Of a DNA stretch of 39,247 nucleotides, positions 1,750 to 13,458 are shown in pieces. Below the pieces are notes generated by a model that made no database searches, had not been told where the DNA came from, and was given only the letters and a program-made list of their open reading frames with translations. The DNA is from Clostridia bacterium. GTDB taxonomy: Bacteria > Bacillota > Clostridia > Christensenellales > CAG-138. The translations under genes and the position numbers were made by a program. Numbering within the stretch: the stretch's first letter is position 1; the number at the start of each line of letters is the position of its first letter. The DNA lies in contig JAFWJN010000010.1 of the NCBI GenBank assembly GCA_017514685.1, forward strand, positions 1-39,247, given 5' to 3'.

Positions 1750-2241
1750 ATGGAAACCAAAACGTACAAAAAAGGCGACATTATTTTCAGACAAGGTGAT
1801 CCCGGCGATTGTCTGTATGATATTCACTGGGGAACCGTCGGAGTGTATGCAAATTACGGAATGCCGGATGAGAAACTTCTTGCAGAACTGGAAGGAGACG
1901 ACTTCTTCGGAGAGATGGGCCTTCTGGAAAAAGAACCCCGCTCCGCAACCGTAGTTGTACTGGAGAAGAATACCCAGATCGCTAAAGTTACGGAAGAAGA
2001 TTTTATGAGCTTTTTTGCGGAAAGACCGGAAAAAGCACTGAAAATCATGATTCAGCTGAGCGAACGGCTGCGGAAGACAACCAAGGATTATCTGGAAGCG
2101 TGCCGCGTAGTTTATGAGTCGGTGGAAGCGGAGAAGAACGGAGAAGAGAAGAGCTCCTGGCTGAAGGAGACGATCGACGAAATCTGCGCCGTCTATAAGG
2201 ATTATAACTTCTACTTCCATGACTGGGATCGGTTCATGTGA
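1750..2241 (+). CDS. Stand-alone cyclic nucleotide-binding protein (first copy)
   Basis: The product is 163 aa and consists of one CNB domain (about residues 1-115) with a helical tail. The phosphate-binding cassette is intact: FGEMGLLEKEPRSAT has the Glu that contacts the ribose and the Arg that contacts the cyclic phosphate. Unlike CRP/FNR regulators it has no C-terminal helix-turn-helix, so it should act through protein contacts, not DNA. Its start is the ATG at 1750, with AGAGGAG 6-7 nt upstream. It is the first gene of the operon and is followed after 40 bp by a second CNB gene of the same build, so the pair looks like a tandem duplication. A class III cyclase is encoded later in the same operon and is the obvious source of the ligand. 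Whether cAMP or cGMP binds cannot be read from the sequence. Confidence 0.88.
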   Translation: METKTYKKGDIIFRQGDPGDCLYDIHWGTVGVYANYGMPDEKLLAELEGDDFFGEMGLLEKEPRSATVVVLEKNTQIAKVTEEDFMSFFAERPEKALKIMIQLSERLRKTTKDYLEACRVVYESVEAEKNGEEKSSWLKETIDEICAVYKDYNFYFHDWDRFM

Positions 2242-2281
2242 GAAACCATGGGAAGACGACAGATTGACAGGAGGATCTATT

Positions 2282-2752
2282 ATGAAAGAATTGGTTTTTC
2301 AGAAAAATGATGTGATTTTCAAACAGGGACAGTTCCAGTCCACGATGTTCGATATCGGCAAGGGATGCATCGGCATTTATGCGAACTACGGCGAAGCAGA
2401 TGAAAAACAGCTCGCGGTGTTCGGTCCGGAGCAGGTTTTTGGAGAAATGGGAATGATTGAAGCCCTTCCGCGTTCTGCGACAGCGGTTGCTTTGGAAGAT
2501 GAAACGGTTGTGTATGAAATCGATGGGGAAGAGTTTTCATCCTACTTCAGAGATAAGCCGGCGAAAGTGTTCCTGATCATGAAGCAGCTCAGCCAGAGAA
2601 TTCGTGAGACGAACCGAAATTATCTGGATGCGTGCCGTACCATTTATGAGGCTCGGGAAGCGGCAGAAAAGAATGAGAACAAGAGCCCGTGGATTCAAGA
2701 ACATCTGAAATTCTTCTATGAGGTCTATCGTAATTTCGGTCGTATCAAATAA
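2282..2752 (+). CDS. Stand-alone cyclic nucleotide-binding protein (second copy)
   Basis: The product is 156 aa, a single CNB domain plus a helical tail, with the cassette FGEMGMIEALPRSAT intact (Glu and Arg present). It shares with the preceding protein the motifs GxxGIYANYGxxDEK, FGEMG, PRSAT and a tail ending in an aromatic-rich helix, so the two are paralogues from a local duplication. The ATG at 2282 is preceded by ACAGGAGG; an upstream in-frame ATG at 2219 overlaps the first gene and lacks a ribosome site. No DNA-binding domain is present. Two receptors with slightly different cassettes could differ in affinity or ligand, or bind each other. It lies 40 bp before the PP2C phosphatase gene, suggesting that it controls that protein. 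Confidence 0.88.
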   Translation: MKELVFQKNDVIFKQGQFQSTMFDIGKGCIGIYANYGEADEKQLAVFGPEQVFGEMGMIEALPRSATAVALEDETVVYEIDGEEFSSYFRDKPAKVFLIMKQLSQRIRETNRNYLDACRTIYEAREAAEKNENKSPWIQEHLKFFYEVYRNFGRIK

Positions 2753-2792
2753 TTACTGTCGGAATCATCAATGCAAGTGAGGAGGGAACGTC

Positions 2793-4961
2793 TTGCCGGA
2801 GAAAAGATATAATGAAATGACGGAAGACGAGAAGAGACGCTATTCTCTGAAAAGACGTGTTCTTCGGGCAACAGTCCAAACTTCCGTGATTCTTGCCGTG
2901 ATTGCATTGCTGATCGGGTCGGCTTTGTATACTTCTCAGGCTGTCAGCAAAAAGATTTCAGAAGCGTTCAATCTATCCAGAAACGCAGCGTCGATATTGC
3001 CAAAATTGGAAGATATCGGTCCGTACGTGGAGGAAGTCATGTCGGTTTACCGATCACTTCCTGAAAAAGAACGGATGAAGACGGGAACCGCTGAATACCG
3101 GGAGCATTTTAAGAGCCTTTCCGAAAGCGGAATCTATCAGGTTACAGTCAGTCTGCTGGATGATTTTCTGGATGCGAGTGAGGTGTATGATATCTATCTT
3201 GCTGCATATGATCCCGAAACAAATGCAATCGTGTACCTGGCTGATCCGGATGAACAGAGCCCGATCATGCCGGGAGAATGGGAATACACCTCTTCTCGGG
3301 GAATTGCTAAATTCATGGGATGGAACGGTGAAGGAATGCTGTATGACATCGACCGGACCGAGAAATACGGCTGGCTTTGTACTAGTGGAGTTCCTGTTTA
3401 TGAGTCCCGGAATGTGAAAGCATTTATTCTGTCAGACGTAACCTTGATGGATGCCGCAAGAAGTATTGTTTCCTTCATTCTTCAGCTGACTCTTGGAGTG
3501 GCTGCGGCAACGGTTCTGATTGCAGTGAGTGCGGCGAAACATCTGGATAAGACCCTCGTGAAGCCGGTAGACTCTATTTCGGAAGCGGCAATGCGCTACA
3601 TAGAGGATAAAAAGACCGGCAAAGAAGTTCCGAATCATTTTGAGTCGCTGAATATCCGAACAGGGGACGAGATCGAAAGACTTGCGCTTGTGATGACGGA
3701 TATGGAGAAAGAACTCTCTTATCATGAGAAAGAATTGACAGCGGTCACAGCGGAAAAAGAAAAGATCGGCGCAGAATTGAATATTGCCGGGCAGATTCAG
3801 GAGGGAATGCTTCCCGGAATCTTTCCTCCTTTCCCGGAACGTCCGGAGTTTGATATTTTCGCACTGATGCATCCTGCAAAAGAGGTCGGCGGCGATTTCT
3901 ACGATTTTTTCCTGATCGATGACGATCATCTGGCACTGGTAATCGCTGATGTATCCGGAAAAGGGGTTCCGGCGGCACTCTTCATGATGGTGTCAGAAAT
4001 TCTGATCAAGAATTATGCATCAATGCCGAAAGCTACCCCTGCGGGAATACTGGCAAAAGTCAATCACGCAATCTGCAGCAACAACAAAGCGGAAATGTTC
4101 GTTACCGTGTGGCTCGGGATTCTGGAGATTTCCACCGGACATCTCAAAGCTGCAAATGCCGGACACGAATATCCGGCAATCCGCCGGAAGGGCGGCAATT
4201 TCGAACTGTATAAAGATCCGCATAGCTTCGTGATCGGCGGGATGGACGGCCTGCGCTACAAAGAATATGAACTGGAACTGGCTCCCGAAGACTGTCTGTT
4301 CGTATATACGGACGGAGTGACCGAAGCATCCGATCCGGAACTGAAGATGTTTGGAACCGCACGGATGCTTGAAACACTCAACATTGAGCCGAATGTACAT
4401 CCCGAGAGACTGCTGAACCGGGTCAAGGACGCGATTCAAACATTCTGTGGCAGTGAACCGCAGTTCGACGATATCACTATGATGGCTCTTCGCTACTGCG
4501 GAAAAGAAACCAAGAAACTGACGGTCAAGGCTAAAACAAAATATCTGGACCGTGTACTATCCTTCATCGACAGGGAACTCGAAGAGGCAGGGTGCTCCGT
4601 TAAAACCAAGATGCAGATTGATGTTGCAGTGGAAGAACTGTTCGTCAATATTGCAAAGTATGCGTATGCGCCTGAAACCGGAAACGCAGTTATCGGAATT
4701 CGGATTGAAGAGGATCCTCTTGTCGCTGAGATTACATTCTCAGACAGCGGTATTCCATATAATCCGCTGGAGAGGGAAGACCCCGATATTACTCTTTCCG
4801 CTGAAGAAAGGGAAATTGGCGGGCTTGGAATCTTGATCGTGAAAAAGAGCATGGATGATATCAGTTATCATTACCGGAACGGGCAAAATATCGTAACCAT
4901 TCGTAAAACCCTACAGCAGAAGGAGATAAAAAATGCTGAAGATCAATCAGACAAGGAATGA
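2793..4961 (+). CDS. Membrane PP2C (SpoIIE/RsbU-type) phosphatase fused to an RsbW-like kinase domain
   Basis: The product is 722 aa. The chosen start is TTG at 2793, since TGAGGAGGG stands 6 nt before it; the next ATG is 8 codons inside. Order of parts: membrane helix (about 27-50), extracytoplasmic sensor region (50-222), second helix (about 224-248), HAMP-like segment and coiled coil (250-345), PP2C phosphatase (345-570) with the metal-site motifs GGDFYDFF and VIADVSGKGVPAALFM and a late DDITMM, then a HATPase_c domain (about 585-705) with N box EELFVNIAKYAY, DSGIPYNP and GGLGILIVKK. Known RsbU-type phosphatases dephosphorylate RsbV-type STAS proteins, while RsbW-type kinases phosphorylate them, so the two opposite activities sit in one chain. 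Its stop overlaps the STAS gene, the likely substrate, by 29 nt. The external domain could sense a small molecule; its ligand is unknown. Confidence 0.88.
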   Translation: MPEKRYNEMTEDEKRRYSLKRRVLRATVQTSVILAVIALLIGSALYTSQAVSKKISEAFNLSRNAASILPKLEDIGPYVEEVMSVYRSLPEKERMKTGTAEYREHFKSLSESGIYQVTVSLLDDFLDASEVYDIYLAAYDPETNAIVYLADPDEQSPIMPGEWEYTSSRGIAKFMGWNGEGMLYDIDRTEKYGWLCTSGVPVYESRNVKAFILSDVTLMDAARSIVSFILQLTLGVAAATVLIAVSAAKHLDKTLVKPVDSISEAAMRYIEDKKTGKEVPNHFESLNIRTGDEIERLALVMTDMEKELSYHEKELTAVTAEKEKIGAELNIAGQIQEGMLPGIFPPFPERPEFDIFALMHPAKEVGGDFYDFFLIDDDHLALVIADVSGKGVPAALFMMVSEILIKNYASMPKATPAGILAKVNHAICSNNKAEMFVTVWLGILEISTGHLKAANAGHEYPAIRRKGGNFELYKDPHSFVIGGMDGLRYKEYELELAPEDCLFVYTDGVTEASDPELKMFGTARMLETLNIEPNVHPERLLNRVKDAIQTFCGSEPQFDDITMMALRYCGKETKKLTVKAKTKYLDRVLSFIDRELEEAGCSVKTKMQIDVAVEELFVNIAKYAYAPETGNAVIGIRIEEDPLVAEITFSDSGIPYNPLEREDPDITLSAEEREIGGLGILIVKKSMDDISYHYRNGQNIVTIRKTLQQKEIKNAEDQSDKE

Positions 4962-5232
4962 AAAGAATGTAACTGTTGAACTGGAAGGCAGACTGGACAC
5001 CAATACCGCACCGGAACTGGAAGCAGCCTTTGGTGAAATCCTGGAGGGTGTTGAGTCACTGGTGCTGGACTTTGAGAAACTGGAATATGTTTCTTCAGCA
5101 GGATTGAGAGTGCTGCTCTCAGCTCAGAAGACCATGACGAAGCAGGGGGAAATGAAACTGGTGCATGTGAATGAAACGATCGGCGAGATTTTTGAAGTAA
5201 CCGGATTCTGCGACATTCTCACAATCGAATAA
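4933..5232 (+). CDS. STAS-domain anti-anti-sigma-type protein (RsbV-like)
   Basis: The product is 99 aa and is one STAS domain. The motif YVSSAGLRVLL (residues 52-62) carries the phospho-acceptor position, predicted Ser55 by comparison with the DS(S/T)G site of RsbV and SpoIIAA; the usual Asp before it is Ser here, a common variant. The gene begins inside the end of the phosphatase/kinase gene (29-nt overlap, with CAGAAGGAG upstream of the ATG), so the two are almost certainly translationally coupled partners. In known systems the unphosphorylated STAS protein releases a target from an RsbW-type kinase. No sigma factor is nearby, so the final target is not identified. A terminator-like hairpin follows the gene. 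Confidence 0.9.
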   Translation: MLKINQTRNEKNVTVELEGRLDTNTAPELEAAFGEILEGVESLVLDFEKLEYVSSAGLRVLLSAQKTMTKQGEMKLVHVNETIGEIFEVTGFCDILTIE

Positions 5233-5245
5233 CAGCCCCTTTTTG

Positions 5246-5283
5246 CAATTCCGGAACCGGAAGGCCGGAATTGTTTCTTTTCT
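5246..5283 (+). terminator. Hairpin with T-rich tail after the STAS gene
   Basis: CAATTCCGG (5246-5254) pairs perfectly with CCGGAATTG (5265-5273), followed by TTTCTTTTCT. It looks like an intrinsic terminator, perhaps partial because the T run is interrupted. It would lower expression of the downstream oxidoreductase-to-lipoprotein genes relative to the switch genes, or mark the operon boundary. Confidence 0.65.
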
Positions 5284-5300
5284 GCAGCCGGAGGAAATGA

Positions 5301-5879
5301 ATGAAAAAAATCCTTTGGATTGATGCATGTGTCAGAAAAGAGTCCAGAACCAGAAAATTGGCAGAGCATATCCTCTCCAAACTGGACGGAACGGTGACCA
5401 GAGTCGATCTTGACAAAGAGCAGATTCCGCCACTGACGGGAAAAATGTTAACATATCGCAGCAGGAAAGCAGAGAAACAGGATTTTTCGGATCCTGTTTT
5501 CCGCTATGCCGTGCAGTTTAAGGATGCGGATGAGATTCTGATTTCCGCGCCTTACTGGGATTTATCATTTCCTGCATCGCTGAAATCATATATAGAAGCA
5601 ATCAACATTGTGGGGCTGACCTTCCGCTATACAGAGGAAAATCAACCGGTGAGCATGATCAAGGCAAAACGTCTGATCTATGTGACGACAGCAGGAGGCA
5701 GGATCCTATCAGAGGAACCCGGATTCGGTTATATCCGGCTTGTTATGAACAGCTTTTACGGAATTGAAGAATTCCTGTGTTTCAAGTCGGAAAACCTGGA
5801 TCTGATCGGTGCTGATCCGGAAAGCATTCTGAAGAAGAGCAGGGAAGAAATTGACAGAACTTTTTTGGAGGAACAATAA
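5301..5879 (+). CDS. NAD(P)H-dependent FMN oxidoreductase (flavodoxin-like fold)
   Basis: The product is 192 aa. The N-terminal beta strand and phosphate loop (KKILWIDACVRKESRTRKLA) and the central APYWDLSFPASLKSYIEAI segment match the Flavodoxin_2/AzoR group of FMN-dependent NAD(P)H:quinone or azo reductases. Such enzymes are soluble dimers that pass two electrons from NAD(P)H to quinones, azo dyes or flavins. The ATG is preceded by GCCGGAGG. The stop is followed with no gap by the ATG of the MBL hydrolase, so the two are co-translated. A redox enzyme inside a signalling operon may be a regulated output or a detoxification function; nothing here settles its substrate. Confidence 0.8.
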   Translation: MKKILWIDACVRKESRTRKLAEHILSKLDGTVTRVDLDKEQIPPLTGKMLTYRSRKAEKQDFSDPVFRYAVQFKDADEILISAPYWDLSFPASLKSYIEAINIVGLTFRYTEENQPVSMIKAKRLIYVTTAGGRILSEEPGFGYIRLVMNSFYGIEEFLCFKSENLDLIGADPESILKKSREEIDRTFLEEQ

Positions 5880-6671
5880 ATGAATCGATTCAGCCTGACA
5901 GTTCTCGGAACCCGCGGCTCTGTGACGGTCAGTGGAAAAGAATATGAAAGGTTCGGCGGAATGACCTCCTGTTATCTGGTCAGAGCAGGAGATCAGGTCC
6001 TCTTTTTAGACGCAGGAGCGGGGATTATCCATGCTCCGGAAATGGAAGAAAGCGAGCCTGCCATTCTGATTTCTCATTTGCACCTGGATCATCTGGTCGG
6101 TCTTGGAATGTATCCGAGATTGTCAAAGAAGGGAAGATGTACGAAAATATATCTGCCTGCGAAGGATGACGACAACGCGCTTGCGGAACTGGACAGTCTG
6201 TATTCTCCTCCTTACTGGCCATGCAGTTTGACCGATTACAGCGGAACGCTGGAAGTTCACGCGCTGAATCTTCCCATGAAGATCGGTGAGGTTACGGTTG
6301 AGGGAATGAAAGGTAATCATCCGGGCGGTTCCATCGTCATGAAATTGTCTTATGAAGGAAAAAGCATCGTTTATGCAACCGACTATGAGTATGAGAGGAT
6401 TTCTTTCGAAAGACTGAAAGAGTTTGCCAAAGACTGCGATCTCCTTTTGTACGATGCGCAGTATACGGAAGAGGAGTATGAAAGAAAGAAGGGCTTTGGA
6501 CATTCTACCGCAGAGAAAGGAATTGAGCTGATGAACTCCTGCGGAGCGAAAAGGATGCTTCTGGTTCATCATGATCCTCAAAGTAAGGACGGAGAACTGG
6601 ACCGGAGAGAACTTTTGCTTCCGGTTCCGAATGTTCATTATGCCAGAGAGAATGAGGAGATCCTGTTGTGA
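5880..6671 (+). CDS. Metallo-beta-lactamase-fold hydrolase (possible cyclic phosphodiesterase)
   Basis: The product is 263 aa. It starts with a TRGSVTVSG strand and carries the zinc motif HLHLDHLVGLG (HxHxDH), a later NHPGGS histidine, YATDYEYE (the bridging Asp) and a C-terminal VHHDP histidine, so the two-zinc site appears complete. The build resembles the COG1235/PhnP-like group, which includes cyclic phosphate phosphodiesterases. Its gene overlaps the nucleotide cyclase gene by 4 nt (GTGA), so both proteins should be made in a fixed ratio. That suggests the hydrolase may break down the cyclase product, an inference that the motifs permit but do not prove. The ATG directly follows the oxidoreductase stop and has GGAGGAAC in front. 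Confidence 0.78.
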   Translation: MNRFSLTVLGTRGSVTVSGKEYERFGGMTSCYLVRAGDQVLFLDAGAGIIHAPEMEESEPAILISHLHLDHLVGLGMYPRLSKKGRCTKIYLPAKDDDNALAELDSLYSPPYWPCSLTDYSGTLEVHALNLPMKIGEVTVEGMKGNHPGGSIVMKLSYEGKSIVYATDYEYERISFERLKEFAKDCDLLLYDAQYTEEEYERKKGFGHSTAEKGIELMNSCGAKRMLLVHHDPQSKDGELDRRELLLPVPNVHYARENEEILL

Positions 6672-7447
6672 GCGACAAGAAGATACAATCAATTGAAGAG
6701 GCGGAGAAAGAGATCAGCAGACTTCAAAATGCGATCCGGCATAGGGATGAGTTCATTCGGAAAACATTCGGGCGGTATCTGACAGACGAAGTGGTGGAGG
6801 AAATACTGGATTCCAAGGATGGCCTGAAAATCGGAGGAGAGCGGCGCGAAGTTTCGATACTGTTTACCGACTTGCGGCATTCTACCGAGATTTCGGAGCA
6901 GATGGATCCGGAAGACTTTATCCGAATGCTGAATCATTATCTGAGTGAAATGATAGAAATCATCAATGCCTGGCAGGGTAACATTCTGGAATTTGTCGGA
7001 GATGCGATTGTTGTGGTTTTCGGAGCGCCAAAGGTAAATGATGAATCCGCAAGAGATGCTGTTGCCTGTGCCGTTGCCATGCAGCGGAGAATGGAAGCAG
7101 TCAATGCATGGAACAGAGAACATGGTTTTCGGGAACTTGCCCAGGGAATCGGGATTCATAAGGGCGCTGCGATATTGGGAAATATCGGTTCTCAGACCCG
7201 GATGAAGTATGATATGATCGGGCGGAATGTCAATCTGACTTCCCGAATCGAAGGATATACGGAAGGCGGTCAGATCCTTGTTTCGGATGAAGCGCTGGAA
7301 GCTGCGGGATCGCTTGTGCACACAGATCCGGATGGAGATCTGAAAGTTAAACCAAAGGGAATCAAGGAAGAAATTACGATTCACAGTGTCATCGGTTTCG
7401 GGAAAAGTCGTATTCCGGGACATGAAACTGATAATTCAGAACGCTAA
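6668..7447 (+). CDS. Class III adenylate/guanylate cyclase
   Basis: The product is 259 aa, started by GTG at 6668 with GAGGAG upstream. A short N-terminal coiled helix (1-50) precedes one class III cyclase domain (about 55-240). Both metal-binding Asp residues are visible: FTD68 and GD112. The transition-state Asn189 and Arg193 are in NVNLTSRIEG. Asp182 (YDMIG) fits the adenine-selecting position, but the partner lysine position (four before Asp112) is Glu108, as in guanylate cyclases. The choice between ATP and GTP is therefore uncertain. No membrane segment or sensor domain is fused, so control must come from other proteins. Class III domains work as dimers. Its likely receptors are the two CNB proteins at the start of the operon. 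Confidence 0.9.
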   Translation: MSDKKIQSIEEAEKEISRLQNAIRHRDEFIRKTFGRYLTDEVVEEILDSKDGLKIGGERREVSILFTDLRHSTEISEQMDPEDFIRMLNHYLSEMIEIINAWQGNILEFVGDAIVVVFGAPKVNDESARDAVACAVAMQRRMEAVNAWNREHGFRELAQGIGIHKGAAILGNIGSQTRMKYDMIGRNVNLTSRIEGYTEGGQILVSDEALEAAGSLVHTDPDGDLKVKPKGIKEEITIHSVIGFGKSRIPGHETDNSER

Positions 7448-7477: not shown

Positions 7478-8623
7478 ATGAAAAAGCTGAGTGAATTGCT
7501 TGAGAAGAGATGGTTTGCAAATCTGGTCGCTTTGAGCGGAGCGGTTGCGGTATATCTGCTGCTGCTTCATTTCAGTTCGGTTACCGGATGGCTGAAATCG
7601 GTATGGAAGTTTTTGAACCCGATCGTGATAGGTCTGATTCTGGCATATTTGATCGATCCGATTGTGGTTTTTATCGAGAAAAGAATTTTCGGTAAAATGA
7701 AGCGCGATGGACTTCGCAGAACCCTTGCCGTTCTGCTGGGAACGTTTTTCACCTTGTGCGTAATCGGGTTTCTATCATTTCTGATTATTCCGTCCATCGT
7801 TGCGACTGTCCGGGAAATTGTCGGCAGGTCAGATGAACTGATCGGACAGGCGCATGTGCTATTGGAGAGAATCAATTCATCTGAACTGGGCATCAGCCTC
7901 AGCTGGGATGATGTGACGGGAATCATAGAGCAGAGGTTTGGCGAGTTCTTCAATCTGCTGACCGGTAACCTGAACAGCATTGTTTCAAGGCTGACGGATG
8001 TCGGCAGCATTACGATCAATGTCCTGATCGGTATCATTCTGGCAATGTACTTTCTGCTTGGAAAGAAAAGACTTCTGGGCGGAGTGGAAAAACTTCGGAG
8101 AGCGCTCCTTCCGCCGGATAAATATGAGGAGCACACGGATTTCTGGAGAAGAAGCAATGACATTCTCATCCGTTATATCGGCTGCAATCTGCTGGATGCT
8201 TTGATTATCGGTGCTGCAAATGCGATTCTGATGCTGATTTTCAAAATGCCATATGTCGTATTTATTTCTGTGATCATGACCATCACAAACCTTCTTCCAA
8301 CATTTGGACCGATTATCGGAGCCGGAATCGGAGCTCTGTTCCTGCTGATCCAGAATCCTATTCTGGCTTTGATCTTCCTGATCTTTACAGTGGTGCTTCA
8401 GTTTGCGGATGCCTACTTAATCAAACCGAAACTGTTCAGCACGAATCTGGGCATCCCTGCGGTCTGGACTTTGATCGGTACGATCCTCGGAGGAAAGATG
8501 TTCGGTATCCCGGGAGTGTTCCTGGCAATTCCGGTTGTAGCGATTTTGACGATCATTTACAAGGAACATTTTCTGCCATGGCTTGCGTCAAGACATTCAG
8601 ATAAAATTGAAATCATTCACTGA
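7478..8623 (+). CDS. AI-2E (YdbO/PerM-type) family transporter
   Basis: The product is 381 aa with about seven to eight membrane helices and the hallmark NLLPTFGPIIGAGIGALFLL stretch near residue 270. The long soluble section between helices 3 and 4 (about residues 115-185) is typical. The family exports or takes up small molecules: some members move the quorum signal AI-2 and others act as Na+/H+ antiporters, so the substrate cannot be named. The ATG has ACAGAGGAA in front and lies 30 bp after the cyclase stop, so it belongs to the same operon. A membrane exporter here could carry a signal linked to the circuit, but this is only a neighbourhood argument. Confidence 0.85.
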   Translation: MKKLSELLEKRWFANLVALSGAVAVYLLLLHFSSVTGWLKSVWKFLNPIVIGLILAYLIDPIVVFIEKRIFGKMKRDGLRRTLAVLLGTFFTLCVIGFLSFLIIPSIVATVREIVGRSDELIGQAHVLLERINSSELGISLSWDDVTGIIEQRFGEFFNLLTGNLNSIVSRLTDVGSITINVLIGIILAMYFLLGKKRLLGGVEKLRRALLPPDKYEEHTDFWRRSNDILIRYIGCNLLDALIIGAANAILMLIFKMPYVVFISVIMTITNLLPTFGPIIGAGIGALFLLIQNPILALIFLIFTVVLQFADAYLIKPKLFSTNLGIPAVWTLIGTILGGKMFGIPGVFLAIPVVAILTIIYKEHFLPWLASRHSDKIEIIH

Positions 8624-8646: not shown

Positions 8647-10149
8647 ATGATGAAAAAGATAATTGTTGTTTTACTGGCTGCAATGCTGCTGATCGGATGC
8701 GTACAGGCACAGTCAAGAGCATCAGCGCTGATTGAAAAATCAGAAGAATGCAAGATGATCGGGAAAACATTTGCAGAGGTTGAAGACAGATATGGACCAT
8801 TGCTGTCGGTTTATATTGAAGCAGATGGAGCCCCGCTGTTTCTGCTTGAGAAAACCGCAATCGGATTCTATTTCGGAAACTTGGCGATTCCGGCAACCTG
8901 GCACTCGTATGCAGCATCCGGGATGATTCCGGCAACGGTCGTGATCCGCGATGTGCCGGCTGCAGAGATCTGTACAGGTGTATCGGGCAGGCTGAAAGAT
9001 TACGGCGTTCAGGATGTCGGTGAGATATCGGAGAATCTTCACATGCTGGAACCGGAATACTCCGACAGACTCGGAAAGGATGTTTATACGCTTTATCTGA
9101 CAGAGCAGGATCTCATTCTGTCGGCACTTTGTGAAAAAGACCAGGGAATTATCACCAAAGAAACCGTTGTTCGGATTCAGAAAGGAACAACACCGGGCCA
9201 CACAGTAGCCCCGGAAGATCTCCCCACACCCACACCATTGATCCCTATACCGACGCCTGACTATGAGACACCTTACCAGACGGCGAAGACTTACATGGAA
9301 AAGGGACAGTATGTGGAAGCCCTGGCCATTTTCAAGGAATTGAACGGATACGGGGACAGCGAAGCACTCATTTTGCGCTGTCAAAATGAAATCGTCTATC
9401 AGAACGCGATGGAACAGTATAAGGGCAGGCATTACAAAGAAGCAGAAATTCTCTTCAAATCACTGGGAAACTTCCGTGATGCGGAGATCTATATGCTTCG
9501 CGCGCGAATTCTCCCTTCCAAGAAAGGCGACAGAATCATCTTCGGTAGGTTTGAACAGGATGATAAGACATCCTCTCCGGAAGATATTGAATGGATCGTT
9601 CTGGCTAGATCCGGAAACAAGCGAATGCTGATCAGCAGGTATATCCTTACAACGCTTCCGTTCGATAAGAACCATAAGGTCGCGGATGACCGCGAGAATA
9701 TAGCGGAAGCGGGGCGTGTGCCTGCGCCATGGGAAAAGAGTTCCCTGCGCAAATGGTTGAACGGCACATTCTATACTACCGCGTTCGACAAAGTGGAACA
9801 ATCCGTGATCCAGACCACACGCATTACCAACGAAGGAAATAACGGATTTAATATCAAAGGCGGTGCCGCAACGAAGGATAAGATTTTCCTGCTGTCGATT
9901 TCCGAAGCGACCAAGTATTTTACCAAAGACGCGAACCGGAAAACAAGCAAGACAAACTATGCGAAAAATATCTATTCTCTGGGGAAGCGTTATAACTGGT
10001 GGTGGCTCCGTTCTCCGGGCATGCACTATGACTTTGCAGCAATCGTTATGAGCGGTGGCGGTTATACGGAAGGTTCCGGAGAATGGCAGGGTCGCGGCGC
10101 AAACAATCCAGGCGGTGTACGGCCTGTGATGTGGATCGATCTTTCCTGA
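8647..10149 (+). CDS. Lipoprotein with TPR-like repeats and DUF6273 domain
   Basis: The product is 500 aa. A signal peptide ends in the lipobox LLIGC with Cys18 as the lipidation site, so the protein should be anchored outside the membrane. Residues about 20-180 are unassigned. A Thr/Pro-rich linker (about 180-205) is followed by two TPR-like helical repeats (AKTYMEKGQYVEALAIFKELNGYGDSEA and a second copy, about 212-285), then a DUF6273 domain (about 290-500) with RIIFGRF, SSLRKWLNGTFYTTAF, WWLRSPG and a closing GVRPVMWIDL. DUF6273 resembles lectin-like sulfatase-modifying/FGE folds and is common on the surface of Bacillota; its function is unknown. It follows the AI-2E gene by 23 bp and closes the operon. 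Confidence 0.82.
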   Translation: MMKKIIVVLLAAMLLIGCVQAQSRASALIEKSEECKMIGKTFAEVEDRYGPLLSVYIEADGAPLFLLEKTAIGFYFGNLAIPATWHSYAASGMIPATVVIRDVPAAEICTGVSGRLKDYGVQDVGEISENLHMLEPEYSDRLGKDVYTLYLTEQDLILSALCEKDQGIITKETVVRIQKGTTPGHTVAPEDLPTPTPLIPIPTPDYETPYQTAKTYMEKGQYVEALAIFKELNGYGDSEALILRCQNEIVYQNAMEQYKGRHYKEAEILFKSLGNFRDAEIYMLRARILPSKKGDRIIFGRFEQDDKTSSPEDIEWIVLARSGNKRMLISRYILTTLPFDKNHKVADDRENIAEAGRVPAPWEKSSLRKWLNGTFYTTAFDKVEQSVIQTTRITNEGNNGFNIKGGAATKDKIFLLSISEATKYFTKDANRKTSKTNYAKNIYSLGKRYNWWWLRSPGMHYDFAAIVMSGGGYTEGSGEWQGRGANNPGGVRPVMWIDLS

Positions 10150-10168: not shown

Positions 10169-10196
10169 AGCCCGGTGATTGCCGGGCTTTTGATTT
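10169..10196 (+). terminator. Intrinsic terminator at the end of the signalling operon
   Basis: AGCCCGG (10169-10175) pairs with CCGGGCT (10182-10188) across a 6-nt loop, followed by TTTTGATTT overlapping the stem end. It lies 20 bp after the lipoprotein stop and before the convergent regulator gene. Confidence 0.8.
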
Positions 10197-10214: not shown

Positions 10215-10925
10215 CTAGTCCTGCTTTCGATATTCTCTCGGTAACTGTCCTGTCAGGTCTTTGAACGCTTGGGTGAACTTGCTTTGGTTCTGATAGCCGG
10301 CTTCAAGGGATATTTCTTCAATGGAAAGACTGGAATGGAGGAGAAGATCCTTTGCGTGACTGATCCTACGTGCTTTCATATATGCTGCAAGCGGCTGTCC
10401 GTAAACGGTCTTAAATGTGTTTTTTAAAGTCGTCTGGTTGATGTGAAACCGCTCGGACAGGTCTTCAATGGTATAACGCTCGCTCAGATGATCCATCAGA
10501 AAATCATGAATACTCTGAATAGTTTGAATGTTGGTATCATATTTATCAGACTCAATCGGCACCTCATCCGAAGGACAGGAGAGTTCCGCAATCTCTTCGA
10601 TCATTTCATGAAGGGCTTTGGTGCGGGCTGTTTCGGCTGCGGTATAGTAAACTTCTTTTCCTTCGCGTCTGCTTACAACAAAGCCTCCGGTTTTCAGAAG
10701 TTTCAGATGATGGGAGACGGCGGAACTGCTCATATCCATCAGCGCAGACAGATTGATAACGCACTCCTCGCAATGACACAGAATCCAGAAGAGCTGGACT
10801 CTTTTTCCGTCGCTCAGCATTTGGAATACGTTCCCTATATTTTCAAACACCCTGGCAGAAGGCATCCAGTCCTGGAGCTGCCCGGGCGTATGACCATGAT
10901 CATGCGGTAAAAAGACTTTTCCCAT
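10215..10925 (-). CDS. Fused ArsR/SmtB metal sensor and AraC-type regulator
   Basis: The product is 236 aa. The ATG at 10925 is preferred over the one at 10934 because AGGAG sits 9 nt upstream of the former and touches the latter. The first half is an ArsR/SmtB winged helix: a His-rich N terminus (His8, His10, His12), a cysteine cluster CHCEEC (Cys50, Cys52, Cys55) at the place of the ELCVC metal site, and the recognition helix SSSAVSHHLKLLKTGGF. Residues about 137-236 form a complete AraC DNA-binding domain with two helix-turn-helix motifs (YTIEDLSERFHINQTTLKNTF and LSIEEISLEAGYQNQSKF). It is transcribed away from the HMA and P-type ATPase genes, so it most likely represses or activates them in response to Zn, Cd or Pb. 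A fusion of a classical repressor with an activator-type domain is unusual. Confidence 0.9.
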   Translation of the reverse strand: MGKVFLPHDHGHTPGQLQDWMPSARVFENIGNVFQMLSDGKRVQLFWILCHCEECVINLSALMDMSSSAVSHHLKLLKTGGFVVSRREGKEVYYTAAETARTKALHEMIEEIAELSCPSDEVPIESDKYDTNIQTIQSIHDFLMDHLSERYTIEDLSERFHINQTTLKNTFKTVYGQPLAAYMKARRISHAKDLLLHSSLSIEEISLEAGYQNQSKFTQAFKDLTGQLPREYRKQD

Positions 10926-10950
10926 AAAACTCATCTCCTGTTCGAAAGAT

Positions 10951-11442: not shown

Positions 11443-13458
11443 ATGCAGAACATAATTGTGGAAATCCTGCTGGGAATAGTCGTCGTCATGGCGGTCTTGA
11501 TTCTGACGGTCATCGGCAGAAAAAACGGCGGGATGACAAAAAAACAGAAGAAGATGATGATCAGGATTCTGATCGCCTCCGCTGCGCTTTTAGGATTGCA
11601 GTTTCTGCCGGCAGAGCTGTTTGATACGTTTGACCGGATTCTTTTCAAAAGCGCGGGAAGAATCATCCGCCTGATTCTCTATCTCGCGGTGTATGCAGTG
11701 ATCGGATATGACATCCTGATCAAAGCATGGAAAGGAATCAAAAATCTCAGACCGTTTGACGAATGTTTCCTGATGACGGTGGCAACGCTAGGTGCGCTGG
11801 CAATAGCGGTATATGAAAACGGAGATTATGTCGAATCGATCGCGGTTATGCTGTTCTATCAGATCGGAGAATGGTTCCAGGGATATGCAGTCGGAAAGAG
11901 CCGCCGGAATATAAGCAGTCTGATGGATATCCGCCCGGATTATGCGAACGTGGAACAGGATGGGGCTCTTGTTCAGGTCGATCCCGATGAAGTCGCAATC
12001 GGAAGCATCATCATTGTGCAGCCGGGGGAGAAGATTCCGATCGACGGAATCATTGAAGAAGGCAGTTCTTCCTTGAATACAAGTGCCCTGACCGGTGAAA
12101 GCATACCCAAAGAAGCAACCGTTGGAGATGAAGTAATCAGCGGATGCATTTCCATGACCGGTGTGCTGAAGATCCGGACGACAAAGGAATTCGGAGAATC
12201 AACAGTATCGAAGATTCTGGATCTTGTCGAAAACGCGAGTTCCCGTAAATCAAAATCAGAGGATTTTATTTCCAGATTTGCGAGAATTTATACTCCTGCG
12301 GTTTGCTTTTCCGCACTTGCGCTTGCGCTGATACCGCCTCTTGTCAGGATTCTCTTTTTGGGAACCGACGCTCAATGGGGCGTCTGGATCTATCGGGCTC
12401 TGACATTCCTGGTCATCAGCTGCCCTTGCGCGCTTGTAATCAGCATCCCGCTGAGTTTCTTCGCAGGGATCGGCGGAGCAAGTCAGGAAGGTGTTCTGGT
12501 AAAGGGTTCCAATTATCTGGAAGACCTTTCCAAAACAAAAGTCATTGTTTTCGACAAGACAGGTACACTGACGCAGGGCGTGTTTGAGGTTTCCGATATT
12601 CACCACAATGAACTGGAGAGGGAGAGAATTATCGAATACGCGGCACTCGCGGAAAGCGCTTCCTCCCATCCGATCAGCAAGAGCCTGCAAAGAGCGTACG
12701 GGAAAGAAATCGACCGGAGCCGGGTTATCAATATTAAGGAGATCAGCGGAAATGGCGTGACAGCATCGATTGACGGGCATCAGGTTGCGGTCGGAAATGA
12801 TAAGCTCATGAGAAGTCTGGATATCTTCTATCGGGACTGCCATATGACCGGAACGATCATTCATATGGCAATTGACGGTGAATACGCAGGGCATATCGTG
12901 ATTTCCGATATTGTGAAACCGACTTCTCTGCAAGCTGTCAAAGAACTCAAGAGAAACGGAATCGAAAAGACTGTCATGCTTACCGGAGACGGGAAGAAAG
13001 TAGCGGATGTTATAGCACAGCAGCTGGGAATTGATGAGGTTTACAGCGGACTGCTGCCGGCCGATAAGGTGGAAAAGGTGGAAGCACTGCTTGAAAGCAA
13101 AGGCTCGTCCGGAAAACTGGCGTTCGTCGGCGATGGCATCAATGATGCTCCGGTTCTGTCCAGAGCGGATATCGGCATTGCGATGGGAGCGCTGGGATCG
13201 GATGCAGCCATTGAAGCGGCGGATGTAGTATTGATGGATGACGATCCCAAGAAGATCGTCAAAGCGATCAAGATCTCCCGGAAATGCCTTGGAATCGTGT
13301 ATCAGAACATTGTATTCGCCTTGCTGATCAAGTTCATCTGCCTGGTATTGGGAGCATTTGGCATTGCGAATATGTACCTTGCGATCTTCGCAGACGTCGG
13401 AGTGATGGTTCTTGCGGTCCTGAACGCGATGCGCTGCCTTTTCGTTAAAAATCTGTAA
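11443..13458 (+). CDS. Heavy-metal P1B-type ATPase (Zn/Cd/Pb exporter)
   Basis: The product is 671 aa. All P1B landmarks are present: actuator-domain TGES, CPC metal site in the sixth core helix (Cys327-Pro-Cys329), phosphorylation site DKTGTLT (Asp371), the SSHPIS nucleotide-domain motif, GDGINDAP hinge, and eight or so membrane helices. It would use ATP to pump Zn2+, Cd2+ or Pb2+ out of the cell. The N terminus holds an extra hydrophobic helix and a basic loop (GRKNGGMTKKQKK) in place of the usual HMA domain, which is encoded by the separate small gene upstream. Its ribosome site is modest (GAAGGCGAG). Divergent metal-sensor gene and strong promoter indicate metal-induced expression. The precise metal cannot be read from sequence. 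Confidence 0.92.
   Translation: MQNIIVEILLGIVVVMAVLILTVIGRKNGGMTKKQKKMMIRILIASAALLGLQFLPAELFDTFDRILFKSAGRIIRLILYLAVYAVIGYDILIKAWKGIKNLRPFDECFLMTVATLGALAIAVYENGDYVESIAVMLFYQIGEWFQGYAVGKSRRNISSLMDIRPDYANVEQDGALVQVDPDEVAIGSIIIVQPGEKIPIDGIIEEGSSSLNTSALTGESIPKEATVGDEVISGCISMTGVLKIRTTKEFGESTVSKILDLVENASSRKSKSEDFISRFARIYTPAVCFSALALALIPPLVRILFLGTDAQWGVWIYRALTFLVISCPCALVISIPLSFFAGIGGASQEGVLVKGSNYLEDLSKTKVIVFDKTGTLTQGVFEVSDIHHNELERERIIEYAALAESASSHPISKSLQRAYGKEIDRSRVINIKEISGNGVTASIDGHQVAVGNDKLMRSLDIFYRDCHMTGTIIHMAIDGEYAGHIVISDIVKPTSLQAVKELKRNGIEKTVMLTGDGKKVADVIAQQLGIDEVYSGLLPADKVEKVEALLESKGSSGKLAFVGDGINDAPVLSRADIGIAMGALGSDAAIEAADVVLMDDDPKKIVKAIKISRKCLGIVYQNIVFALLIKFICLVLGAFGIANMYLAIFADVGVMVLAVLNAMRCLFVKNL

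Follow-up and report, generated by a model that had tools for sequence, protein, structure and literature searches.

A candidate cyclic-mononucleotide circuit in a Clostridia operon that joins partner-switching genes to a class III nucleotide cyclase

The cyclases known to be controlled by STAS proteins are diguanylate cyclases, and a class III cyclase controlled in this manner would be new. The STAS proteins BgrV and HsbA control the diguanylate cyclases BgrR and HsbD, and SiaC, a partner protein of the DUF1987 family, binds to SiaD, likewise a diguanylate cyclase, at its stalk (PMC8457831). A PP2C/STAS pathway over enzymes of cyclic di-GMP has been proposed from Campylobacterota gene clusters (PMC9239204), and PMC4976288 mentions a diguanylate cyclase that is under the control of a stressosome. 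No described circuit with a class III cyclase under a partner switch is found by searches of an open-access library, most subscription papers being outside the search; the available passages of a STAS review (PMC8256260) contain no word beginning with 'cyclase', and those of PMC9237108 contain nothing relevant. The stretch analysed here (the window) spans the full length, 39,247 bases, of contig C9 in a Clostridia bacterium assembly of 2.37 Mb and 82.6% completeness. Positions 1750-7447 of its plus strand carry seven genes, which encode two cyclic-nucleotide-binding (CNB) proteins termed CNB1 and CNB2, a SpoIIE/HATPase fusion protein, a STAS protein, an oxidoreductase, an MBL-fold hydrolase and a class III cyclase. 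It is about evenly likely that this operon is a complete, locally wired cyclic-mononucleotide circuit, in which the cyclase is driven by the partner switch.

The operon resembles SiaABCD of Pseudomonas aeruginosa in that a membrane PP2C phosphatase, a serine kinase, a STAS-like partner and a second-messenger cyclase are encoded in one operon. It differs from SiaABCD in that the cyclase is a class III (PF00211) mononucleotide enzyme instead of a GGDEF diguanylate cyclase, the partner is a STAS protein of PF01740 instead of a DUF1987 protein, the phosphatase and kinase are fused, and MBL and CNB genes are added. It shares with RsbU-RsbV-RsbW of Bacillus the same three activities, as judged by domain, but the phosphatase and kinase are one protein, no sigma factor is seen in the operon, and the link to a cyclase is recurrent. 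In the first-pass annotation of this DNA, two CNB proteins that lack DNA binding, the membrane fusion protein, its STAS partner, the MBL hydrolase and the class III cyclase were placed on one strand with small gaps or overlaps, and all of them are detected by Pfam; its statement that no sigma factor is nearby agrees with the open reading frames of the window that were read, among which none is seen, though no scan with sigma factor models was made.

Relatives of the cyclase are collected by a profile search with the cyclase alignment over genome contigs, via two short peptide patterns. The search is not exhaustive and gives 26 loci in Clostridia or their kin, many of them from ruminant guts according to their record titles, with stretches of 5.1 to 20.8 kb around the cyclase gene. 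They include the two other close relatives found in the search of the window's family (genomes G061 and G329), and L134 and L148 are, as judged by length and genes, identical to the contigs L073 and L046. The parts found in the window recur in related species in other combinations. The MBL gene lies directly upstream of the cyclase gene in 18 of the 26 relatives, and the 4-base overlap seen in the window is present in 14 of these 18, according to the open reading frame caller. Eleven relatives have a CNB pair next to the cyclase (L129, L132, L133, L134, L135, L136, L137, L141, L148, L152 and L153). Genes for a PP2C phosphatase, a kinase and a STAS protein lie directly upstream of the MBL-cyclase pair on the same strand in three relatives (L138, L139 and L146), and in L142 the cyclase gene is followed, after 37 bases, by a STAS gene that lies 0.7 kb short of the contig end. 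A GAF-domain ABC ATPase and an FtsX permease follow the cyclase in six relatives (L130, L131, L138, L139, L140 and L143), and the GAF domain may be an alternative nucleotide reader. None of the 27 loci, the window counted, has both the CNB pair (12/27) and the GAF-ABC genes (6/27) (p=0.017, the region before L143 being unseen). The MBL-cyclase pair occurs with neither a CNB pair nor an adjacent switch in L128, L130, L131 and L140, the phosphatase gene of L130, about 5 kb away on the opposite strand, not being counted as a switch. The cyclase occurs without an MBL gene in L136, L143 (at a contig edge), L144, L145, L147, L149, L150 and L151. As a separate observation, the FtsX permease is about 1000 amino acids long, and a secreted-looking protein without a Pfam match also follows the cyclase in the six GAF-ABC loci and in L146.

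The CNB pair and the switch occur together only in the window among the 27 loci. The 11 CNB-linked relatives have no switch nearby in the stretches seen, those of L136 and L137 being just 5.6 kb long, and the three switch-linked relatives have no CNB genes nearby in theirs. Since the cyclase is what the CNB-linked and switch-linked loci have in common, it is most simply the target of the switch. The switch is placed upstream of the outputs, because it is found with both of them, namely with the CNB pair in the window and with the GAF-ABC genes in L138 and L139. In the simplest reading, therefore, the circuit centres on the cyclase as its hub, with the switch as input and the CNB or GAF protein as output. 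According to a rough chance model, in which 3 modules and 2200 genes per genome are assumed, the probability of the switch adjacency is about 7e-6 for 3/27, and 6e-4 when L138 and L139 are counted once.

The mechanism proposed from these comparisons builds on the domains, the intact active-site motifs, the MBL-cyclase pairing, the tie of CNB family to cyclase across genomes and the two phosphatase lineages at the MBL-cyclase pair, all of which are observed. The phosphatase/kinase fusion protein would sense an extracytoplasmic signal with its membrane part and would set the phosphorylated share of the STAS protein. The STAS protein, in its unphosphorylated (or phosphorylated) form, would switch the class III cyclase, which lacks a sensor, by binding to it, the N-terminal stalk being the probable site. 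The translationally coupled MBL hydrolase would destroy the product, so that the signal stays short and local, and the two CNB proteins would, as a pair, read the nucleotide and relay it to a further target. If this is true, partner switching, which is best known for its action on sigma factors and was later found to act on diguanylate cyclases as well, also drives classical cAMP/cGMP-type signalling, and input, synthesis, breakdown and reader form a compact module in one transcript. Under this mechanism, orphan CNB pairs, as well as the GAF-ABC transporters that stand beside the same cyclase elsewhere, would also have a predicted signal.

The CNB family is present in 24 of the 26 genomes with a close cyclase (E<=1e-15); it is absent from G749 and G767, and only a fragment is present in G768. 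Its base rate is 7/297 genomes of the order with a single-protein query (E<=1e-8) and 28/391 genomes of the class with an alignment query (E<=1e-18), rates that rest on differing queries and thresholds. In the sample of the order, the 5/297 genomes with a CNB match at E<=1e-20 are the same five that have a cyclase match at E<=1e-50 (Fisher's test, 5e-11). These strict thresholds were picked after the lists had been viewed; with looser ones, five genomes are shared of 7 and 8 (p=6e-8). The cyclase is of a longer, distant type in three of the five genomes (G010, G254 and G284). A relative of the fusion protein is present in 25 of the 26 cyclase genomes (it is missing in G758), as compared to 51/297 in the order, and no cyclase relative is found in 14 stretches around fusion relatives (L052-L065). 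None of these co-occurrence tests is corrected for kinship. The cyclase family is rare: 7/103 genomes of the window's family have a match and 3/103 a close one, no other genome of the window's genus is among the seven, and the only match at E<=1e-60 in 391 genomes of the class is the window itself.

The phosphatases that stand at the MBL-cyclase pair belong to two lineages. In a tree of 35 phosphatase domains, that of the window is placed with L052 inside a group of 21, and those of L138, L139 and L146 are placed in a different, supported group of nine. A single clade of the window and these three is rejected by the approximately unbiased test (p=0.000323, 4 rows versus 31); the group tested is set by neighbourhood, though the tree had been seen beforehand. 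Because there are two phosphatase lineages, the switch joined the MBL-cyclase pair at least twice, or the phosphatase was replaced in place; whichever is the case, the position of the switch beside the MBL-cyclase pair is kept. In the cyclase tree, in which many forks are open, the window is not grouped with L138, L139 and L146. The CofE-like gene flanking the operon is also present in six other genomes of the genus, with 80% DNA identity in four and 66-67% in two. In the stretches fetched from these six relatives, neither the operon genes nor the two genes following them are found beside the CofE-like gene. Either this lineage acquired or assembled the operon, or its neighbours have lost it. 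Its G+C content is 47.0%, as compared to 49.5% for the window after position 7478, and this difference is not striking.

Several findings weigh against the proposal that the switch drives the cyclase. The complete gene order is found in this one assembly, which is incomplete. The switch is linked to the cyclase in just 3 of the 26 relatives, two of which (L138 and L139) are closely related, and 7 of the 26 have no phosphatase, STAS, CNB pair or MBL gene in the stretch seen, L143 beginning at a contig edge. The co-occurrence of fusion protein and cyclase is suggestive, but lineage and genome size confound it. Such switches serve other targets too, because they are common in the order and no cyclase is found near the 14 fusion relatives mentioned above. 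The two phosphatase lineages could mean replacement in place instead of two recruitments. Finally, the MBL protein scores as high with the RNase Z model (64.0 bits, far under its cut-off) as with the model for cyclic nucleotide phosphodiesterase NF041851 (62.8 bits, also under its curated cut-off of 400).

The alternative that survives best is that two unrelated modules, brought together in this species, share a promoter without a functional link: one is a circuit of CNB, MBL and cyclase, and the other is a partner switch that acts on a target of its own. The full order being known from this assembly only, and the modules also occurring apart, are consistent with it, as is the presence of the CofE-like gene without operon genes in the six genus relatives, so that the region was recently assembled, acquired, or lost by them. 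This alternative is possible but rather improbable, given that a switch stands at the MBL-cyclase pair in three other loci via a different phosphatase lineage, that chance adjacency is unlikely under the rough model, and that the assembly has no other STAS match.

A second alternative concerns the MBL protein, which may have nothing to do with cyclic nucleotides and be a hydrolase of the RNase Z or another kind, the cyclase product being removed elsewhere. Apart from the slightly higher score noted above, it draws on the scan of six other MBL proteins, in five of which an RNase Z model comes first. In the sixth, that of L146, the phosphodiesterase model comes first, covers the full length and scores 69.0 bits. 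The profile made from three MBL proteins, in all of which the HLHLDH sequence (an HxHxDH metal-binding motif) is invariant, has 6kns (YhfI) and 1zkp as its nearest solved proteins, with RNase Z behind. YhfI is reported to cleave cAMP and cGMP, in preference to cCMP and cUMP (PMC9117128), and cAMP and cGMP are hydrolysed by a related group that includes Rv1339 (PMC9293780). The MBL protein resembles these MBL-fold phosphodiesterases, YhfI and the atypical class II enzymes of the Rv1339 type, in its HxHxDH metal site, size and PF12706 domain; it differs from them in reaching less than a sixth of the NF041851 cut-off. Because it is translationally coupled to the cyclase, as it is in most relatives, phosphodiesterase is its likeliest role. 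The MBL hydrolase is therefore probably a cyclic-mononucleotide phosphodiesterase, and the RNase Z-like alternative is unlikely.

In a third alternative, which is that of the first-pass annotation, the CNB proteins sense the cyclase product and in turn set the balance of phosphatase and kinase acting on the STAS protein, and the STAS protein drives an unseen target. The fusion gene does directly follow the CNB genes, the gaps being 40 bases each, and the CNB family and cyclase co-occur. In addition, looser arrangements occur: L122 encodes a phosphatase relative and, 3.7 kb away on the same strand, a divergent CNB protein (45 bits), and in L113 a STAS gene and a double-CNB gene are 7 kb apart. 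However, the CNB pair adjoins a switch in the window only, as compared to 11 CNB-linked loci without a switch and three switch-linked loci without CNB genes in the stretches seen, and the genome of the switch-linked L146 (G767) has no CNB family match at E<=1e-15. This order of events is accordingly quite unlikely. The annotation appears to be half right: that the cyclase belongs with the CNB proteins, and the partner switch with the operon, is borne out by the 11 and three linked loci described above, the latter with the other phosphatase lineage, and a cyclic nucleotide circuit is probably tied to a partner switch, but the comparison would put the switch before the cyclase and not after the CNB proteins. 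As to the conserved co-occurrence by which the annotation was to be checked, both halves of the operon recur among the 26 relatives, whereas the exact full order, tried as a conserved unit, is not found in any of them. A Pycsar-like phage defence, in which a pyrimidine cyclic nucleotide would be made on infection and the CNB proteins would be the effectors, is highly improbable and is set aside, because, despite the shared combination of class III cyclase and CNB proteins and the PADLOC matches of the cyclase to PycC (71.8 bits) and of both CNB proteins to PycTIR, in its CNB part (46.5 and 37.2 bits), no TIR or other added Pfam domain that could be an effector is found on either CNB protein, the MBL and switch genes are extra, and the best solved relatives of the cyclase are two Cya2 entries (2w01 and 6fht), far ahead of 7r65, which is taken here to be a PycC.

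The cyclase consists of a short N-terminal stalk, an FGRY transducer element and a catalytic domain. The second metal-binding Asp, together with the Asn and Arg, is present in all 32 aligned rows, and the N-terminal strings all end in the first metal-binding Asp. Close cyclases have, by reading, only the stalk and no sensor of their own, whereas the distant relative of L049 has a PAS domain, and for this reason the close cyclases seem to need an outside regulator. The guanylate cyclase Cya2 of Synechocystis is the closest solved relative and shares with the window cyclase the FGRY element and Glu at the position of E488, at which 2w01 also has Glu and 6fht has Lys. Replacement of E488 by Lys confers adenylate cyclase activity on Cya2 (PMC5995499). 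The window cyclase differs from Cya2 in that it has Asp for Gly at the second base-contact position and no CHASE2 or membrane part, and in that its family varies at E488: 27 members have Glu (10), Asp (14), Ser (2) or Ala (1), and none has Lys. On balance these residues might slightly favour GTP as the substrate.

CNB1 and CNB2 are 42% identical, and the phosphate-binding GEM...PRSAT motif is kept in both. They share with CRP/FNR proteins and with regulatory subunits of the PKA type the CNB fold with its phosphate-binding Arg, tandem CNB domains in one chain occurring in the relatives L048 and L049, but they are two separate short proteins without a helix-turn-helix or a kinase. No helix-turn-helix is detected in either with Pfam even at E up to 5, and a CRP-like regulator is therefore rejected. 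Likewise, no second Pfam domain, TIR included, is detected at E<=5, and no membrane segment is seen by reading; the receptors of Pycsar carry a TIR or transmembrane part (PMC11224242). When CNB1 is aligned with the CRP structure 1i6x, residues 7-112 are paired with residues 24-129 of the chain, so that Thr111 would fall on residue 128. The base-reading position of the C-helix, that of CRP Ser128, is occupied by Thr in CNB1, and by Asn in CNB2. This is where CRP reads adenine; PycTIR has an Asn there that reads uracil, and XC_0249 a Glu that reads guanine (PMC11224242).

This position was counted in the loci L128-L171 that have exactly two CNB genes, L172-L178 not being included; L165, of which the second gene exceeds 230 amino acids, was left out, as was any locus whose CNB gene is single or fused, and the second protein of L166 is gapped there. 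The first CNB proteins have Thr or Ser in 29 of 29 aligned pairs. The second have Asn or Asp in 11 of 12 cyclase-linked pairs versus 1 of 15 unlinked pairs (p=1e-5, uncorrected for kinship). The unlinked pairs are not independent, because they come partly from apparent sister species (e.g. L159/L161 and L160/L163), and four of the 15 adjoin a longer cyclase (L155 and L157) or an MBL gene (L169 and L171). These residues suggest that the second CNB receptor may read a base other than that read by the first. A strict match is countered by the second CNB protein of the cyclase-linked L141, which has Thr, and by genomes such as that of L138, which carry the same kind of cyclase with unlinked pairs of the Thr type (L158-L160). 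Because the base positions differ and the cyclases never have the adenylate-type Lys, the CNB pair could compare cAMP with cGMP or another cyclic nucleotide whose synthesis the switch commands. That this is the first partner switch over a class III mononucleotide cyclase with a two-chain receptor whose halves read different bases is, as a whole, distinctly doubtful. A secreted-looking protein of about 580-600 amino acids is encoded 0.8-1.8 kb downstream of the unlinked CNB pairs of L156, L160, L163 and L170, and in at least five loci overall; it is a possible output or a case of shared synteny. Near the double-CNB proteins of another family (L108-L116), no recurrent partner is recognised except the cyclase in L108.

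The fusion protein gives the strongest SpoIIE match of the assembly (165.9 bits, with a runner-up of 31.3 bits), and the STAS protein of the operon is the sole STAS match. Membrane segments are seen by reading in the N-terminal part of the fusion protein, and no Pfam sensor domain is matched in residues 1-326. Its top NCBIfam match is SiaA (67.3 bits, with a cut-off of 700), and its kinase part matches RsbW models with 36.0 and 31.4 bits, below cut-off. The sequences GGDFYD, DVSGKG, TDGVTE, DDIT and GGLGI of the phosphatase/kinase protein and SSAG of the STAS protein are readable, and are taken here as defining motifs of phosphatase, kinase and STAS proteins; the Ser of SSAG is presumably the phospho-acceptor, by analogy with SpoIIAA. 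A second HATPase_c_2 gene of the genome, on contig C39, was considered as the partner of the STAS protein and rejected; its neighbours are read, with no model run, as hydrogenase-type genes and not as sigma factors. A MATE-type transporter gene with a C-terminal HATPase_c_2 domain lies directly upstream of the phosphatase gene in L138 (4976-6751), L139 (5000-6775) and L146 (3276-5030). This domain scores 31.3 bits in L138 and 15.8 bits in L146, the latter being weak and below cut-off, and the MATE-kinase fusion might act as a sensor of the switch.

Table 1. Genes of the operon and the two genes that follow it, with positions in the window.
Feature	Position	Strand	Pfam match
CNB1, stand-alone cyclic-nucleotide-binding protein, 163 amino acids	1750..2241	+	PF00027, 75.8 bits (start at 1750)
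CNB2, second stand-alone CNB protein, 156 amino acids	2282..2752	+	PF00027, 63.8 bits
Fusion of membrane sensor, SpoIIE-type PP2C phosphatase and RsbW-like serine kinase (HATPase_c_2), TTG start	2793..4961	+	PF07228, 162.5 bits; PF13581, 73.3 bits
STAS partner protein, SSAG motif; fusion gene overlapped by 29 bases	4933..5232	+	PF01740, 57.3 bits
Flavodoxin-fold NAD(P)H/FMN oxidoreductase	5301..5879	+	PF02525, 83.7 bits
MBL-fold hydrolase, HLHLDH motif	5880..6671	+	PF12706, 56.9 bits
Class III nucleotide cyclase, GTG start, 4-base overlap with MBL gene	6668..7447	+	PF00211, 97.9 bits
AI-2E-family permease, 30-base gap after cyclase gene	7478..8623	+	PF01594, 159.6 bits
DUF6273 protein, putative lipoprotein (by reading), 23-base gap after permease gene	8647..10149	+	PF19789, 101.8 bits

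The genes are listed in Table 1, and the gaps between the seven genes of the operon are, in order, 40, 40, -29, 68, 0 and -4 bases. The six proteins named at first are all encoded, but that list was not complete, because the oxidoreductase gene (5301-5879) was omitted and the permease and DUF6273 genes follow. The best terminator-like site is located at 10169-10188, and those listed within 1750-7447 are all intragenic; both statements refer to consensus matches only. The transcript may therefore extend to about 10.19 kb, in which case the permease gene is possibly co-transcribed with the operon and the DUF6273 gene is possibly the last gene of the transcript. A scan of the window with Rfam gives zero matches. 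The top NCBIfam match of the oxidoreductase is FMN-dependent NADH-azoreductase, below cut-off. A flavodoxin-fold oxidoreductase gene is not seen between the STAS and MBL genes in relatives, L132 having one 5 kb off on the opposite strand, and the oxidoreductase may be a redox input or a passenger.

Further downstream, a single protein of 239 amino acids that joins an ArsR-type to an AraC-type helix-turn-helix is encoded at 10215-10934 on the minus strand, with a P-type ATPase gene nearby (11443-13458). The region of 14811-38224, after the operon, is a glycoside-use region, with a family 116 glycosidase and an AraC regulator by Pfam, and a peptide-type ABC transporter and further glycosidases by reading; it looks unrelated to the operon.

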